From NCBI RefSeq assembly GCF_002104515.1, contig NZ_NBOE01000001.1, positions 124,001 to 188,000 on the forward strand: a stretch of 64,000 bases of DNA. The letters run 5' to 3'. The position numbers were made by a program, and so were the translations under genes. The notes beneath the pieces are model-generated. The model saw nothing but the letters and a program-made list of their open reading frames with translations. It searched no databases and was not told the DNA's origin. Of the stretch, positions 31,858 to 37,199 are shown piece after piece; the stretch's first letter is position 1, and every line of letters starts with the position of its first letter. Origin of the DNA: Colwellia polaris. GTDB lineage: Bacteria > Pseudomonadota > Gammaproteobacteria > Enterobacterales > Alteromonadaceae.

Positions 31858-33690
31858 TTATTCTTTACTAGAGCATTCGCTTAAACGTGAAAGAAATACG
31901 TAGGGATCAATATCTTGAATATTGGGCGAATCTATTGAGAATACAACTTTAACCGAGTAGTCTCCTAGATTTGCGAAGAAGCGAGTGCTTATTGCTTGTT
32001 TAATACGCGTTAATTTTATCACTGCCTGCTCAGGGCTTTGGTGAGGACATAAAAATAAATATTCGCCAGTGCTTATGACTCCAGCGTAATCTTCTTCATC
32101 GATGTTCTCATTAATAATGATAGCCAGTGTTTGGCTGACATCGTTAAGGGTTTTCCGATTAAAACGAAAGCTCAATTCTTGCCAGTTTTCTATTTTTAAA
32201 TAGGCGATAGAAGCTTCATATTGATATTTTCTAGCAATTTTATATTGCTGTTGATACCAACGTTTTGTTTGTACTGGTTGTGCTAATTGGTTTTGAGGCA
32301 ACTCTATTTCATCGTAACTACGGTTAAGTTGTTGGCGATGAGTCTGAAAACGACAAAAAGCGATAAAAACAGTACTACAGCATAAGAGTAGAGAAAGCAG
32401 AATAATGATATTTTTTTGTTGAGTATATTTTTCATTGAACTTTAGGCTCAGTTGGCTTTGCTCTGCTAAATTTAAAGCAAGTTTCTTAGCTTTATCACTT
32501 GTTGATATAGCGGCTCTAGCGAAAGAATCTTTAACACTAACGTTAGGGTATATCCCTCGATATAATGATAAATAAAGACTTTGATTTTTCAGCGCAAGTG
32601 GAAGATTATTTTTTACAATATAGTAGTCGGTTAATAACAAATACAATTCAATTTGCTGTGGAGAAAGCACAATGTTTTCAGTTAATACTTGCGCTGAAAG
32701 CAACGTACTTTCCGCTTCTTGGTTTTCGCCTAAAGCAAATAACACTTTAACTAAACTAATTTTAGCCGACAATTTAACCCGTACTAAGTTGTATTGATTA
32801 AATACCTCTTGGGCATTAAATAAGTGTTTTTTGGCCGCTTTAAGCCGCTGTTGCTCAAGTAATACCTGACCTAGACCAAGCTCGGCATAAGCTGCATGTA
32901 TGTCGAGTTTATATTGTTTAGAAAATTCTAATGACTGCCAAAAAGCATTATATGCATCATCATATTGGTGCAATTGATAATAAGCTTGAGCGACTAAATG
33001 ATAACTGCGAGCAAGGCCTTCTGATCTTGCCATGTCAGTGCGTAACTTGATGACATGTGTGAGAATTTCTACAGCGTTGTTATACTCTGATAAATAGAAA
33101 TGTGCTTGAGCAATAGTTTCAAGCAATGTTATTTGATCCACATTGGTGAGATTTTGATTGAGTAACGTTTCAACTTTATTAAGCGTTTTTACTGCTTCCT
33201 CGTATTCAGCACTTAATGCATAGGCGACAACAGAGTATGCGAGAGCTTGTAAATGATAATTCATATTATTGGCTTGTTCAGCCAACCATGCTGCAGCCTG
33301 TGAGGTATCTTGTAATTGGAGGTAGTTCCCCTGTGCATAATAGCCGCGAGCAACTTTTAACATTAAATCTAGCTGTATTTCGGTAGCTATTTGATCAATT
33401 TCACTACCATATTGTGCGAGTTGAAATGCCACAAGCAAGTTACCTCGATTGTAAGCAACATCAGATAAAAGCGAAAATGCTTTGGCGATGGTGTTTGAGC
33501 TAAATTGATCTCTAAAATGGACAATTGATTGTGCTGTATCGACCACATCTTGTGAAAGTAATAATTCTTTGTTTAGACTGTAATAATTGTCAATAACTTG
33601 AATATAATTGATGTCATTATTCGTTTCACTTGCTTGAATAGAAAGCGAGATACAAATACTGATTAAAAAACCTATTAGCATTCGATTCAT
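31858..33690 (-). CDS. TPR-repeat membrane protein with degenerate GGDEF domain
   Basis: The 610-residue protein has a signal peptide (residues 1-20), a long periplasmic array of TPR-like helical repeats (about 30-400), one membrane helix (NIIILLSLLLCCSTVFIAFC, about 428-447) and a short cytoplasmic GGDEF-like domain. Where active enzymes have GGDEF, this one has STGEY in VISTGEYLFLCP, and the domain ends soon after, so cyclase activity is unlikely. This architecture is common in Alteromonadales signalling proteins. It could act as a c-di-GMP or protein-interaction sensor. It is divergent from the riboswitch described below. Confidence 0.82.
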   Translation of the reverse strand: MNRMLIGFLISICISLSIQASETNNDINYIQVIDNYYSLNKELLLSQDVVDTAQSIVHFRDQFSSNTIAKAFSLLSDVAYNRGNLLVAFQLAQYGSEIDQIATEIQLDLMLKVARGYYAQGNYLQLQDTSQAAAWLAEQANNMNYHLQALAYSVVAYALSAEYEEAVKTLNKVETLLNQNLTNVDQITLLETIAQAHFYLSEYNNAVEILTHVIKLRTDMARSEGLARSYHLVAQAYYQLHQYDDAYNAFWQSLEFSKQYKLDIHAAYAELGLGQVLLEQQRLKAAKKHLFNAQEVFNQYNLVRVKLSAKISLVKVLFALGENQEAESTLLSAQVLTENIVLSPQQIELYLLLTDYYIVKNNLPLALKNQSLYLSLYRGIYPNVSVKDSFARAAISTSDKAKKLALNLAEQSQLSLKFNEKYTQQKNIIILLSLLLCCSTVFIAFCRFQTHRQQLNRSYDEIELPQNQLAQPVQTKRWYQQQYKIARKYQYEASIAYLKIENWQELSFRFNRKTLNDVSQTLAIIINENIDEEDYAGVISTGEYLFLCPHQSPEQAVIKLTRIKQAISTRFFANLGDYSVKVVFSIDSPNIQDIDPYVFLSRLSECSSKE

Positions 33691-33977
33691 TGAACGTTAA
33701 CTTCCATTTTTAGGTTGTGGGTCACTTTTGTTTTTTACTGTAACTATATTTTATTTAAAGTATTTAATTAACAGTTAGCACTGATAATGTAGAATTAAAG
33801 CTGAAAAATTATTAACTCTACAGCGTAATTAACCATTAGTAATACTACTTTAAACCTAAGCTATAAATAATAAACTCTTTAATATCAAGGCTTTAATTGT
33901 TGCTGCCAAAGTGATATTAAAAGGTGTTTACAAATATAATTCTTTATTTATAATTGTTACTGAGCTTTTTAAGCTTA

Positions 33978-34055
33978 ATAAGGGCAAATCCAGTGAAAAC
34001 TGGAGACGCAAAGTTACCGATCTAAGGGGCAACCTATGATAGCGGAACTGCAAAA
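33978..34055 (+). promoter_or_regulatory. Cyclic di-GMP-I (GEMM-I) riboswitch aptamer
   Basis: The core matches the GEMM-I consensus. AGGGCAAA (33981-33988) is followed by the helix TCCAGT-GAAA-ACTGGA (33989-34004) capped by a GAAA tetraloop, then the invariant GACGCAAAG (34005-34013), CCGATCTAAGG (34017-34027) and the second-helix segment CCTATGATAGCGGAACTGC (34033-34051), equivalent to the tetraloop receptor and TATGATAGC-type element. Aptamers of this class bind c-di-GMP and usually control a downstream gene. Here the next gene downstream is on the opposite strand, so the controlled output is not evident. Confidence 0.9.
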
Positions 34056-34122
34056 TTTAGATATAGTGGGGGCTTATCTTAATTTATCGGTTCCTTCATT
34101 CTAGTCTCTGGTAACTTTGCGT
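34006..34122 (+). repeat. Inverted repeat linking aptamer core to downstream sequence
   Basis: ACGCAAAGTTACC (34006-34018), inside the conserved aptamer core, is perfectly complementary to GGTAACTTTGCGT (34110-34122). Two shorter complementary pairs also occur: ACCGAT (34016-34021) with ATCGGT (34086-34091), and GGAAC (34044-34048) with GTTCC (34090-34094). These look like an alternative fold that competes with the aptamer. The distal arm is followed by a U-rich stretch in RNA (TTCCTTTGTTTTC), so it could act as expression platform or terminator. Confidence 0.65.
34036..34104 (+). CDS. Candidate 22-codon ORF overlapping the riboswitch
   Basis: An ATG formed by the conserved TATGATAGC element of the aptamer opens a 22-codon frame (MIAELQNLDIV at its start) ending in TAG at 34102. 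AAGGGG lies 5 bases upstream within the aptamer. Since conserved aptamer bases create both the start codon and the Shine-Dalgarno, this may be coincidence. It is listed because it is the only sense frame with a ribosome binding site downstream of the riboswitch. Confidence 0.2.
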   Translation: MIAELQNLDIVGAYLNLSVPSF

Positions 34123-34138
34123 GCCTTCCTTTGTTTTC

Positions 34139-35935
34139 TCATCGCTTTTCTTCATTATTGCTTTTATCTTGCGATTTTTTATCTTCAACATACTTATAAA
34201 TCAAAGTTTCTAACATTGATAATGGCATTGAACCATTCTTTAATATTTGATCATGAAAATCGCGTAAATCGAATGATGTACCTAGCTCTTTTTCTGCATG
34301 TTGACGTAACTTTTTGATGGTTAACTCGCCCATTTTATAAGATAACGCTTGTCCAGGCCAAGAAATGTAACGGTCAATTTCAGTTTTTACATTGTGCAGT
34401 GACAGAGCGGTATTATCAGCCAAATAGTTCATAGCACGTTCACGACTCCAGCCTTTCGCATGCATACCGGTATCAACAACTAACCTACAAGCACGCCACA
34501 TTTCATAGGTTAGGCGCCCAAAATCACTATATGGGCTTTGATAAAATCCAGCTTCTTTACCTAAGTACTCTGAGTAAAGTCCCCAGCCTTCACCAAACGC
34601 AGAAATATAAGTACTATTTCGAAACTGAGGTACATTCTCCATTTCTCGAGCAATAGAGTTTTGTAAGTGATGTCCGGGTACTGCTTCATGTAACGTTAGT
34701 GCTTCTAAAACATATAGAGGGCGGCGATCTAAACGGTAGGTGTTAACCCAATAATTACCTGCTTGATCATCGCGTGAAGGGCCAGAATATCGGCCTGTTG
34801 TATATTTAGGTGCAATGTTCGCCGGTACCTCAATAACGCCGTAAGGTGTGCGTGGCAATGTCTTAAATAGTTTCGGTAATTGAGCATCCATTTTTTTAGC
34901 AATAAACGAGGCTTCTTTTAATAAACCTTCTGGGCTAGTGGCGTAAAATTGCTTATCTGTGCGTAAAAAATGGACAAAGTCAGCAAAGCTGCCGGTAAAG
35001 TTTAGTTGCTCAATAATGGTGTCCATTTCATGGCGAATACGTTTTACTTCGGCTAGACCGGTATTGTGTACCTCATCAACTGTATTAGGCAAGGTTGTAT
35101 AGTGTTGTAATCGATTAACATAATAGTTATCACCATTGGGTAAAGAACTTGCGGCTATATTTTTTCGTGCATTGGGTTGATAGCGATTTACCATGTAGTC
35201 GTAATATTGTTGGTAACTGGGTATTACAGACTCAACAATAGCGTTAATAGCTTGTGCTTTTAGTTGCGCTTTTAATTGTGGTGAAAAATACTCAGGCATG
35301 GCAGTAAATGGTTGATAATAAGTGCTTAAACTCGCATCAGGCTTGATAAATGCTTTAATAGAGTCTTCAAAACCGAGCAGTACAACTTTGGGTTGAGTAA
35401 TACCTGCTTCAATACCTTTATCCATCCAATACATTTGTTGAGTAAAATATTTTGGTAAAGCCTGCATACGCAAAATGTAATCGCGATAATCTTGTTCAGT
35501 TTTAAAGCTTACTTGGCTCTTAATTCGACTAATCCAAACATGGAACCCTGACTCAGCGGTTAATGGCATGTAATGCTCTTTGTTGGTGTAATTATCGAGT
35601 TGGTTTTTTATGCTATATGACAAAACTGAATGATTAATGGCCTCAGATTGATTAAGGTTTTTGTCGTCTATTGCTGATAGTCGCTGGTAAATTTCAGACA
35701 GTGCTAGATGTTGCACTTGTAGGTTTTTTGGAGATAAATCGGGTAATCGACTGTTAGTATCGCCGGCAATATCTTGATTAAACGGGCTTTGGTTGTCTTT
35801 AAATTGCTGGTAGTCTTTAATTATTTGTTCAAGATTGTTGCTAACAATTGGCGCGTTAAGTTTTGTCGACTGACAACCCATAATAAATGCAACAAGGAAT
35901 AAGGTGATTGAAAAAGCTTTCATTAGAAATCTCAA
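34139..35935 (-). CDS. DUF885 family lipoprotein, putative metallopeptidase
   Basis: The 598-residue protein starts with a lipoprotein signal peptide and lipobox cysteine (LVAFIMGCQS), so the mature protein should be membrane anchored in the periplasm. The DUF885 domain covers the rest. A zinc-site-like motif, HEAVPGHHLQ, and a downstream glutamate segment (SAFGEGWGLYSEYL) support hydrolase activity, but substrates are unknown. The start could be the ATG four codons inside (35923). Its 3' end faces the c-di-GMP riboswitch, whose read-through RNA would be antisense to it. Confidence 0.88.
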   Translation of the reverse strand: MRFLMKAFSITLFLVAFIMGCQSTKLNAPIVSNNLEQIIKDYQQFKDNQSPFNQDIAGDTNSRLPDLSPKNLQVQHLALSEIYQRLSAIDDKNLNQSEAINHSVLSYSIKNQLDNYTNKEHYMPLTAESGFHVWISRIKSQVSFKTEQDYRDYILRMQALPKYFTQQMYWMDKGIEAGITQPKVVLLGFEDSIKAFIKPDASLSTYYQPFTAMPEYFSPQLKAQLKAQAINAIVESVIPSYQQYYDYMVNRYQPNARKNIAASSLPNGDNYYVNRLQHYTTLPNTVDEVHNTGLAEVKRIRHEMDTIIEQLNFTGSFADFVHFLRTDKQFYATSPEGLLKEASFIAKKMDAQLPKLFKTLPRTPYGVIEVPANIAPKYTTGRYSGPSRDDQAGNYWVNTYRLDRRPLYVLEALTLHEAVPGHHLQNSIAREMENVPQFRNSTYISAFGEGWGLYSEYLGKEAGFYQSPYSDFGRLTYEMWRACRLVVDTGMHAKGWSRERAMNYLADNTALSLHNVKTEIDRYISWPGQALSYKMGELTIKKLRQHAEKELGTSFDLRDFHDQILKNGSMPLSMLETLIYKYVEDKKSQDKSNNEEKR

Positions 35936-36185
35936 ATGTTAATTATATTAAAATACTCTCTGATTTAATTACCATAACAAATCGAAACCATTTATAAAGC
36001 AAAGATTACGATCACGTCTTAATTTTTCAACACTTTAGTCTATTAGGAGCGCGTTTTGTGCTTTTTAGCCACAAAATGGCTACTTGTTGCAGGCTTTAGG
36101 CATTTTATTATGGCACTTTCATGTAAATTACTGGACAATAACCTACCGGTTAAATTTAGCAATAATGAAATAAAAAGTTGGCATA
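35936..36185. other. Divergent intergenic region
   Basis: A short hairpin TAGCCA-CAAAA-TGGCTA (36066-36082) is the only structure seen in this 250-base gap upstream of the AGDEF gene. No gene is supported. Confidence 0.45.
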
Positions 36186-37199
36186 GTGCAGTACCATGAC
36201 TCTATAGCACAAGCTGAACAAAAAATGCATGCCGCCATAAAACAATTGCAGTTATGGCATATAGCGGCGACTCCAATCAATTACGCGGTGAGTTACGGCT
36301 ACCTTAATAAACACTCAAAAAGTCTTAATAGTGCTATTGAAAAGCAACTTGCATCTAAAAAGAAACTCGATAATTTTTTTCTAGAAGAAATGTATCGTCA
36401 ATTTATTTTAGGACAAAGCGCTTTTAGAGGTGAATTAATTGACGATCTTGATGAAGTGCTCGTAGATTTACAAGCTAATAGTCAACAATCTACTCTTAAT
36501 ACTCAGCGTTTAGTGACTGAGTTAGACGAAAATATTGTTAATCTAAAATCCAAAGATAGAAGCGAAATATTCAACGCTATTAAACAAATACGTTTAACAG
36601 CTCAGCAATTTAAACATGAACAAGAAAAGCTTGCTAAACAGCTTAAGTTTTCACAAAAATCTACAGCCGCATTACGTGTAGAGTTGGACGACGTCAAAAA
36701 AGAAATCTACTTAGATCCGCTGACCGGTTTATATAATCTCAAAGCGATGAATCAGCATTTAGAACTTTGGCTTTGTGATGACCCCAAAAAGCAAGTTGCA
36801 GCAATTGTTATTAATATTGATCAGTTTACTCAAATGAATGAAAGCTTAGGCCCATTAATCAGCGATGTATTATTAACAAAAATTGCCAATAAAGTGAGCA
36901 GTTATGTTGGTCAGAGTGGGTTACCGGTGCGAACCGCTGGCGATGAGTTTTTAATTTTATTGCCTAATATAAAACGAATGGTTGCTGGCGAGGTAGCTGA
37001 AAAAATTCGACAAAGTGTTGAGAAGTTAAGGTTTATTACCAGCAAGTCCGGTACTAGGTTACCTCAAATGACGTTGAGTATCGGTGTTAGCGATTTTAAT
37101 GTTGCTACCAGCGCTAATAATATTATTAACCAAACCCGCGCTCTGATTAATGATAATACGAATAAACGAACTAACCACGTTAATATTGCTAATACTTAA
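36186..37199 (+). CDS. Soluble GGDEF-domain protein with AGDEF signature
   Basis: The 337-residue protein has an N-terminal helical region with coiled-coil character (residues about 60-170) and a C-terminal GGDEF domain (about 175-325). The active-site loop is RTAGDEFLILLP, with alanine replacing the first glycine; some diguanylate cyclases with this change are active. No RxxD inhibitory site precedes it (GQSG at that position). No membrane helix is seen, so it is probably cytoplasmic. Start is GTG with weak AAAAG upstream. It is likely a diguanylate cyclase, with activity unproven. Confidence 0.85.
   Translation: MQYHDSIAQAEQKMHAAIKQLQLWHIAATPINYAVSYGYLNKHSKSLNSAIEKQLASKKKLDNFFLEEMYRQFILGQSAFRGELIDDLDEVLVDLQANSQQSTLNTQRLVTELDENIVNLKSKDRSEIFNAIKQIRLTAQQFKHEQEKLAKQLKFSQKSTAALRVELDDVKKEIYLDPLTGLYNLKAMNQHLELWLCDDPKKQVAAIVINIDQFTQMNESLGPLISDVLLTKIANKVSSYVGQSGLPVRTAGDEFLILLPNIKRMVAGEVAEKIRQSVEKLRFITSKSGTRLPQMTLSIGVSDFNVATSANNIINQTRALINDNTNKRTNHVNIANT

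Follow-up and report, generated by a model that had tools for sequence, protein, structure and literature searches.

A riboswitch is almost always taken to control the gene that lies behind it. In Listeria and Enterococcus, trans-acting riboswitches go by the names SreA, Rli55 and EutX. Action of such riboswitches on mRNAs or proteins is described in the part of PMC7266159 used here. Antisense-acting riboswitches include a SAM riboswitch in Clostridium acetobutylicum and a cobalamin riboswitch in Listeria; in a survey of such elements (PMC9943018), enrichment is highest for the c-di-GMP family, and one uncharacterized example given is A3Q33_07785 from Colwellia sp. PAMC 21821. The nearest precedent for the RNA described here is merRNA of Bdellovibrio bacteriovorus, a c-di-GMP riboswitch RNA with no conserved ORF behind it, for which a reservoir function was proposed (PMC3627812); the passages of that paper used here describe an RNA of 445 nt that is massively expressed and has no conservation outside Bdellovibrio.

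The present RNA has the properties by which merRNA is recognized, in that it is free-standing, carries a c-di-GMP aptamer and has no conserved ORF behind it, but the two are likened by description, not by sequence. It is also shorter (ca. 170 nt vs. 445 nt) and occurs in several genera of marine bacteria, whereas for merRNA the paper cited found no conservation beyond Bdellovibrio. With the c-di-GMP-I (GEMM-I) riboswitches of RF01051 and RF03167 it shares the aptamer fold, the core and, as is usual in riboswitches, a mutually exclusive second fold; unlike them, it has no kept sense gene behind it, and it has a conserved G-rich hairpin in addition. As in antisense-acting riboswitches, it faces the 3' end of an opposite-strand gene within 500 nt, but here the facing gene has often been lost while the RNA stays. 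If it acts in trans, it would likewise be an aptamer-controlled RNA working away from its own locus, as in Listeria and Enterococcus, where the ligands and the partners differ from the putative ones here. No description of this RNA was found in the literature searched, the scope of which lay outside subscription papers, preprints and supplements.

The aptamer and its unit in the window

The window is the whole 64-kb stretch of DNA that was analyzed. A cmscan search of it placed a c-di-GMP-I aptamer on the plus strand at 33973-34055. The match scores 78.6 bits, where the gathering score is 35 (E = 9.2e-14), and spans the full length of the RF01051 model (positions 1-87 of 87). The GEMM-I aptamer claimed by a sequence-only reading of this DNA is thus present. 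It was the sole Rfam match above the gathering score in the window, one weaker match from the aptamer's own clan being omitted from that listing. In a search of 33900-34250 against Rfam 15 at E values up to 5, with further matches from the aptamer's clan left out, the only other match was to a snoRNA and fell far under the cut-off. The aptamer is predicted to bind c-di-GMP.

Judged by its conservation in sequence, the feature is a unit of ca. 170 nt, of which the aptamer is the 5' half. Its parts are, in order, a promoter, a 5' hairpin, the aptamer, a second hairpin whose loop reads GGGGGC, a 3' strand containing CUUUGC and complementary to the aptamer core, and a pyrimidine tract. The end point of 34139 given by the sequence-only reading fits the whole unit, with 34056-34139 as the conserved second half. 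The features are as follows; alignment A1 has 63 rows of related loci, and the last three features are context outside the unit.

33927-33954, plus strand: sigma-70-type promoter TTTACA-16-TATAAT (hexamers at 33927-33932 and 33949-33954), read from the sequence and exact in most relatives
33961-33977, plus strand: 5' hairpin of the GAGCU..AGCUU type; in A1, two of four pairs are changed on both sides and 94.8% of cells are paired
33973-34055, plus strand: c-di-GMP-I aptamer (RF01051, 78.6 bits), with core GACGCAAAG at 34005-34013
34060-34078, plus strand: extra hairpin GATATAGTGGGGGCTTATC with a G-rich loop, TAGTGGGGGCTT at 34064-34075; GGGGGC is there in 84 of 84 loci, though for 52 of the records the query itself contained the motif
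34110-34122, plus strand: anti-aptamer strand, with CTTTGC at 34115-34120; a perfect 13-nt complement of 34006-34018
34124-34139, plus strand: pyrimidine tract, likely the 3' end region of the RNA; 13 positions are 83-100% pyrimidine in 64 loci
34139-35935, minus strand: DUF885 gene, the convergent neighbor (PF05960, 566.4 bits)
36186-37199, plus strand: next sense gene, with a GGDEF domain (PF00990, 90.3 bits)
31858-33690, minus strand: TPR-like protein, the divergent upstream neighbor (TPR_12, 27.6 bits, under the Pfam cut-off of 30.1)

Transcription would start near 33961. Behind the aptamer, the plus strand runs into the 3' end of the DUF885 gene, the distance from 34055 to 34139 being well within 500 nt, and no sense gene was found in the window between the aptamer and 36186, the start of the next plus-strand gene of comparable size. 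The motif of the GGDEF protein reads AGDEF in translation. The orphan position and the AGDEF gene at 36186 were therefore correctly described by the sequence-only reading. By eye, the C-terminus of the TPR-like protein resembles a degenerate GGDEF domain; Pfam reports none.

The stretch 33965-34145 was predicted to fold into a rod of -57.3 kcal/mol (z = -4.90; none of 200 shuffles was as low). Only 62 of the 83 loci had a folding z-score under -2; some members of the C. psychrerythraea group gave weak scores, the weakest being -0.2. Pairing between the anti-aptamer strand and the core prevailed in the ensembles predicted for 62 of 63 loci; in the single miss (G037), the pattern probably took the wrong stretch, and CTTTGC is present there. 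In predicted folds of the relatives' loci, blocking the 3' strand cost 9.3-24.1 kcal/mol (mean 15.3). With the 3' strand forbidden in the window, the middle of the rod stayed and the aptamer was not formed, so that any switching would have to be settled while the RNA is being made. The G-rich hairpin is present in both predicted folds. At least four T within 8 nt after the predicted stem were found in 39 of 83 loci. A classical intrinsic terminator was considered and dropped, since a U-tract proper is not conserved and the tail is C/U-rich. A pseudoknot between the loop and the pyrimidine tract was considered too, but any C/U tract would pair with G. A small protein was rejected for one 20-nt stretch, which contains ATG in 45 of 63 loci and lacks it in 18, so that it offers no conserved start codon.

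Conservation of the unit among relatives

The comparison set comprised 80 loci (64 distinct) from pattern records and related genomes, to which 20 further loci were added later. A1 holds 63 rows, L236 having been dropped because it lies at a contig end; a second alignment, A2, holds 38 of the 64 rows, hand-picked for diversity.

In 98 related genomes, c-di-GMP-I aptamers were found at 130 places in 62 genomes. The 11-mer TAGTGGGGGCT lies close behind one aptamer in 28 genomes (at +9 in 24, +8 in two, +22 in one and +4 in one) and occurs once, at +280, among the other 102 places. The GGGGGC hairpin follows 28 of the 130 aptamers, exactly those at the window's locus, and the 12-mer TAGTGGGGGCTT occurs once in the source genome. 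Forty-one loci were fetched around TPR, DUF885 or GGDEF genes (in G020, around an aptamer). The core GACGCAAAG was present in 29 of them, 28 of which have the hairpin motif and are the loci of the 28 genomes just named, thus recovered by their neighbors as well; the exception, G020, also lacks the TPR, DUF885 and GGDEF genes. A gapped pattern of aptamer core and hairpin matched 52 records, titled Colwellia, Cognaticolwellia, Thalassotalea, Litorilituus, Thalassomonas, Alteromonadaceae and, once, Endozoicomonas. The same pattern had no match in viral contigs.

Neither the core nor the GGCAAA strand varies in A1, although for the pattern-found records the invariance of the core is partly built in, as GACGCAAAG is part of the query. 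UAGUGGGGGCUU is also invariant across the 63 rows, and it was part of the query for 52 records. At the 20 loci found by a model (R1, below), GGGGGC is present in all 20, while the preceding UAGU and the stem vary (GGUA/UACC, GAAA/UUUC); between loci generally, the stem of this hairpin varies with pairing mostly kept. CUUUGC or CUUUUGC stands behind the hairpin in all 64 loci, followed by pyrimidine positions, after which conservation ends. Among the 63 loci with sufficient DNA, 56 have both promoter hexamers without a change and 59 have a spacing of 16; the promoter is exact in 17 of the 20 further loci. For the helices in A1, 98.2% of cells are paired, and 68 cells are changed on both sides, where shuffles gave 19.2 (sd 3.5) and sliding gave no more than 11. 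Pair types were no more numerous than in the shuffles (183 of 500). Pairing of the core with the 3' strand cannot covary, since the core is invariant.

When the 395 genomes of the family were searched with model R1, which represents the non-aptamer half, 102 gave a match, in each case a single one. The DNA was read at 49 of these 102 (28 earlier, 20 newly fetched, and G014), and the aptamer was present in 48. The exception is G014, in which neither promoter nor aptamer core is recognizable. At the orthologous place of that genome (G014:C29:272489-272581, L175) lies a decayed remnant with an altered loop and CTTTGC retained. The window's genus is represented by 17 genomes (G000-G016). In four of them, G008, G012, G013 and G014, core and motif are gone from the locus; all four still have the DUF885 and GGDEF genes, the latter in pieces in G013.

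The R1 matches included a second genus (g82) that is absent from the model; 14 of its 15 matches were read. All 14 loci have the exact promoter, the anti-aptamer strand and an aptamer above the gathering score (four as RF01051, ten as the variant RF03167), and all occupy the same chromosomal place as in the window, with shared flanks consisting of an MscS-like gene and an acyl-CoA thioesterase gene upstream and a 2-thiouracil desulfurase gene downstream. No TPR or GGDEF match was found within the 8 kb read at any of the 14. The DUF885 gene is convergent in 13 and absent in one (G282). In ca. 4 kb downstream, 11 of the 14 lack any plus-strand ORF of at least 80 aa. We read the feature as a small RNA that is vertically inherited, present in one copy per genome where found, and served by its own sigma-70-type promoter.

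The source genome has a second c-di-GMP-I aptamer, which was considered as a second orphan and rejected, as a sense DUF3718 gene lies at +67 nt. This aptamer (G000:C28:134979-135072, minus strand; L084) stands before the gene in the usual way, and similar sense ORFs of 118-119 aa lie behind aptamers in many relatives. G013 has two c-di-GMP-I aptamers ca. 600 nt apart that face away from each other (C35:414126-414201, minus strand, L132; 414816-414891, plus strand, L152). With eight in a 6.5-Mb genome, G028 has the most among the 98 genomes.

Turnover of the neighboring genes

The RNA is followed in the 64 loci by DUF885 and then GGDEF (22 loci), by GGDEF as the first recognized gene (17), by DUF885 and then an exonuclease (12), by an exonuclease first (1), or by DUF885 without a further match (9; L224 and L252 have more than 5 kb, and the other seven, at ca. 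2.2 kb or less, have too little DNA). The remaining three have 165-366 nt, insufficient to tell what follows. The exonuclease is RNase_T by Pfam, and we take it to be oligoribonuclease. DUF885 is the commonest convergent neighbor (43 of 64 loci), and a TPR-like gene lies upstream of the RNA in 62 of 64. Adjacency to DUF885, which the sequence-only reading had proposed to compare in relatives, is therefore frequent and not general: 18 of the 64 loci have the RNA without DUF885 next to it, and at least 15 have it without the downstream GGDEF gene.

One locus (L228) has the row DUF885, GGDEF, exonuclease and RsgA, from which the other arrangements would follow by loss. In a tree of the TPR proteins (60 of the 64 rows), the state with GGDEF directly behind the RNA needs five changes, at least three of them by well supported branches. 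For the 17 loci with GGDEF first, parsimony indicates the loss of an intervening DUF885 gene. DUF885 and GGDEF are adjacent without an aptamer core in G032, G033, G035, G044 and G057. Most likely, the RNA was an orphan ancestrally as well, facing a DUF885 gene. The possibility that relatives have an ordinary sense gene merely deleted in the window does not apply, since GGDEF comes first behind the RNA only in those 17 loci, where it is DUF885 that parsimony removes.

Before the GGDEF gene (36100-36185 in the window), a block of the GGCACTTT .. TTACTAGAGAAT type was seen by eye, with some letters changed, in 15 aligned genomes of the genus, three of which have no intact RNA. By eye, it is also present in five of seven loci in which the gene directly follows the RNA. 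The block differs from the TTTACA/TATAAT kind and looks like a promoter or operator of the gene's own.

Roles considered for the RNA

We consider it somewhat better than an even chance that the locus is a free-standing RNA gene for a c-di-GMP-gated regulatory RNA acting in trans. The parts of this reading differ in strength. That the RNA is an autonomous unit is very probable; that c-di-GMP gates it is probable; that it acts in trans is close to an even matter, leaning to the doubtful side. The DNA itself shows the unit with its promoter and extra hairpin, the complementarity of core and 3' strand, and the survival of the unit after loss of its neighbors. Among the four roles that the sequence-only reading had offered, the free-standing RNA is the best supported, as the unit persists where DUF885, the GGDEF gene or both are absent; antisense RNA and leader do not stand as shared roles, nor does a relic.

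An antisense-acting riboswitch, in which c-di-GMP prevents termination and the read-through transcript lowers expression of the convergent DUF885 gene, is unlikely. DUF885 is probably the ancestral neighbor (it faces the RNA in 43 of the 64 loci and in all but one of the 14 read in the second genus), the aptamer and the terminator-like strand are mutually exclusive, and such riboswitches are proposed in PMC9943018, which gives the c-di-GMP enrichment and the Colwellia example cited above. The loci that lack DUF885 weaken that antisense reading: the unit persists in 18 of 64 loci and in G282 without the gene, so the association is not maintained, and the distance from aptamer to DUF885 differs by several hundred nt, which leaves no fixed overlap. 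Antisense pairing with DUF885 could still occur as a side effect. A reservoir role, in which an abundant RNA would buffer c-di-GMP by binding it, has been proposed for merRNA (PMC3627812) and would suit a free-standing RNA with an intact aptamer and a strong promoter; a buffer requires neither a conserved anti-aptamer strand nor a conserved G-rich hairpin, and we hold this role to be quite unlikely.

Since the unit was kept while its DUF885 and GGDEF neighbors were lost, neither antisense to DUF885 nor a GGDEF leader can be the shared role. The leader would be an on-switch whose read-through across DUF885 expresses the GGDEF gene; feedback on c-di-GMP would make sense, and GGDEF is the first or second recognized gene in 39 of 64 loci. 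It was attractive at first, given the 17 loci in which GGDEF is first, and was dropped on the neighbor losses (the gene is absent from at least 15 of the 64 loci and from all 14 read in the second genus) and on the gene's own conserved upstream block, which three genomes without intact RNA also have. An untranslated RNA of ca. 2 kb would, moreover, invite Rho. As a general explanation, the long leader is thus very unlikely; at the 17 direct-GGDEF loci, leader-type control may exist in addition. The classical arrangement, a leader whose association with a sense gene is kept by selection, was not found: the window has no sense gene before 36186, and some relatives keep the RNA without the GGDEF gene. 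A relic of a lost riboswitch is practically negligible: the remnant in G014, without an aptamer core, shows that decay occurs here, but a full-length aptamer, the promoter and the second half are conserved among relatives, which rules this role out for the unit.

For the trans-acting RNA, the following mechanism is envisaged. Without c-di-GMP, the 3' strand would pair with the aptamer core and the RNA would be a long rod. With c-di-GMP, the aptamer, which is made first, would hold, and the 3' strand would be left free; the signal would thus set the shape of the RNA and perhaps its length. The G-rich hairpin is a likely docking site for a putative partner, either an mRNA or a protein, and the freed C/U-rich 3' strand could pair with a Shine-Dalgarno-like sequence. 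That this holds throughout the family, with the opened rod allowing the freed 3' strand and the GGGGGC hairpin to touch fixed partners, is put forward tentatively and is somewhat doubtful.

Targets of the loop were sought in the source genome with AAGCCCCCACTA at up to two mismatches, which gave 215 matches vs. 166 for the reversed pattern, a control that is not composition-matched. Thirteen one-mismatch sites were inspected in that genome, and no target stood out. In the 98 genomes, TAGTGGGGGCTTRT occurs at 34 places, 28 of them at the RNA; the six elsewhere, compared to four for the backward control, look like chance.

If the proposed reading is true, such an RNA would be a direct output of c-di-GMP signaling, with no gene in cis needed. 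A c-di-GMP aptamer that is its own gene through several genera, joined to a conserved module, would show a second messenger acting via a stand-alone RNA. Culturable carriers such as Colwellia psychrerythraea make the question raised by merRNA, whether such an RNA is a reservoir, a regulator or an antisense RNA, directly testable.
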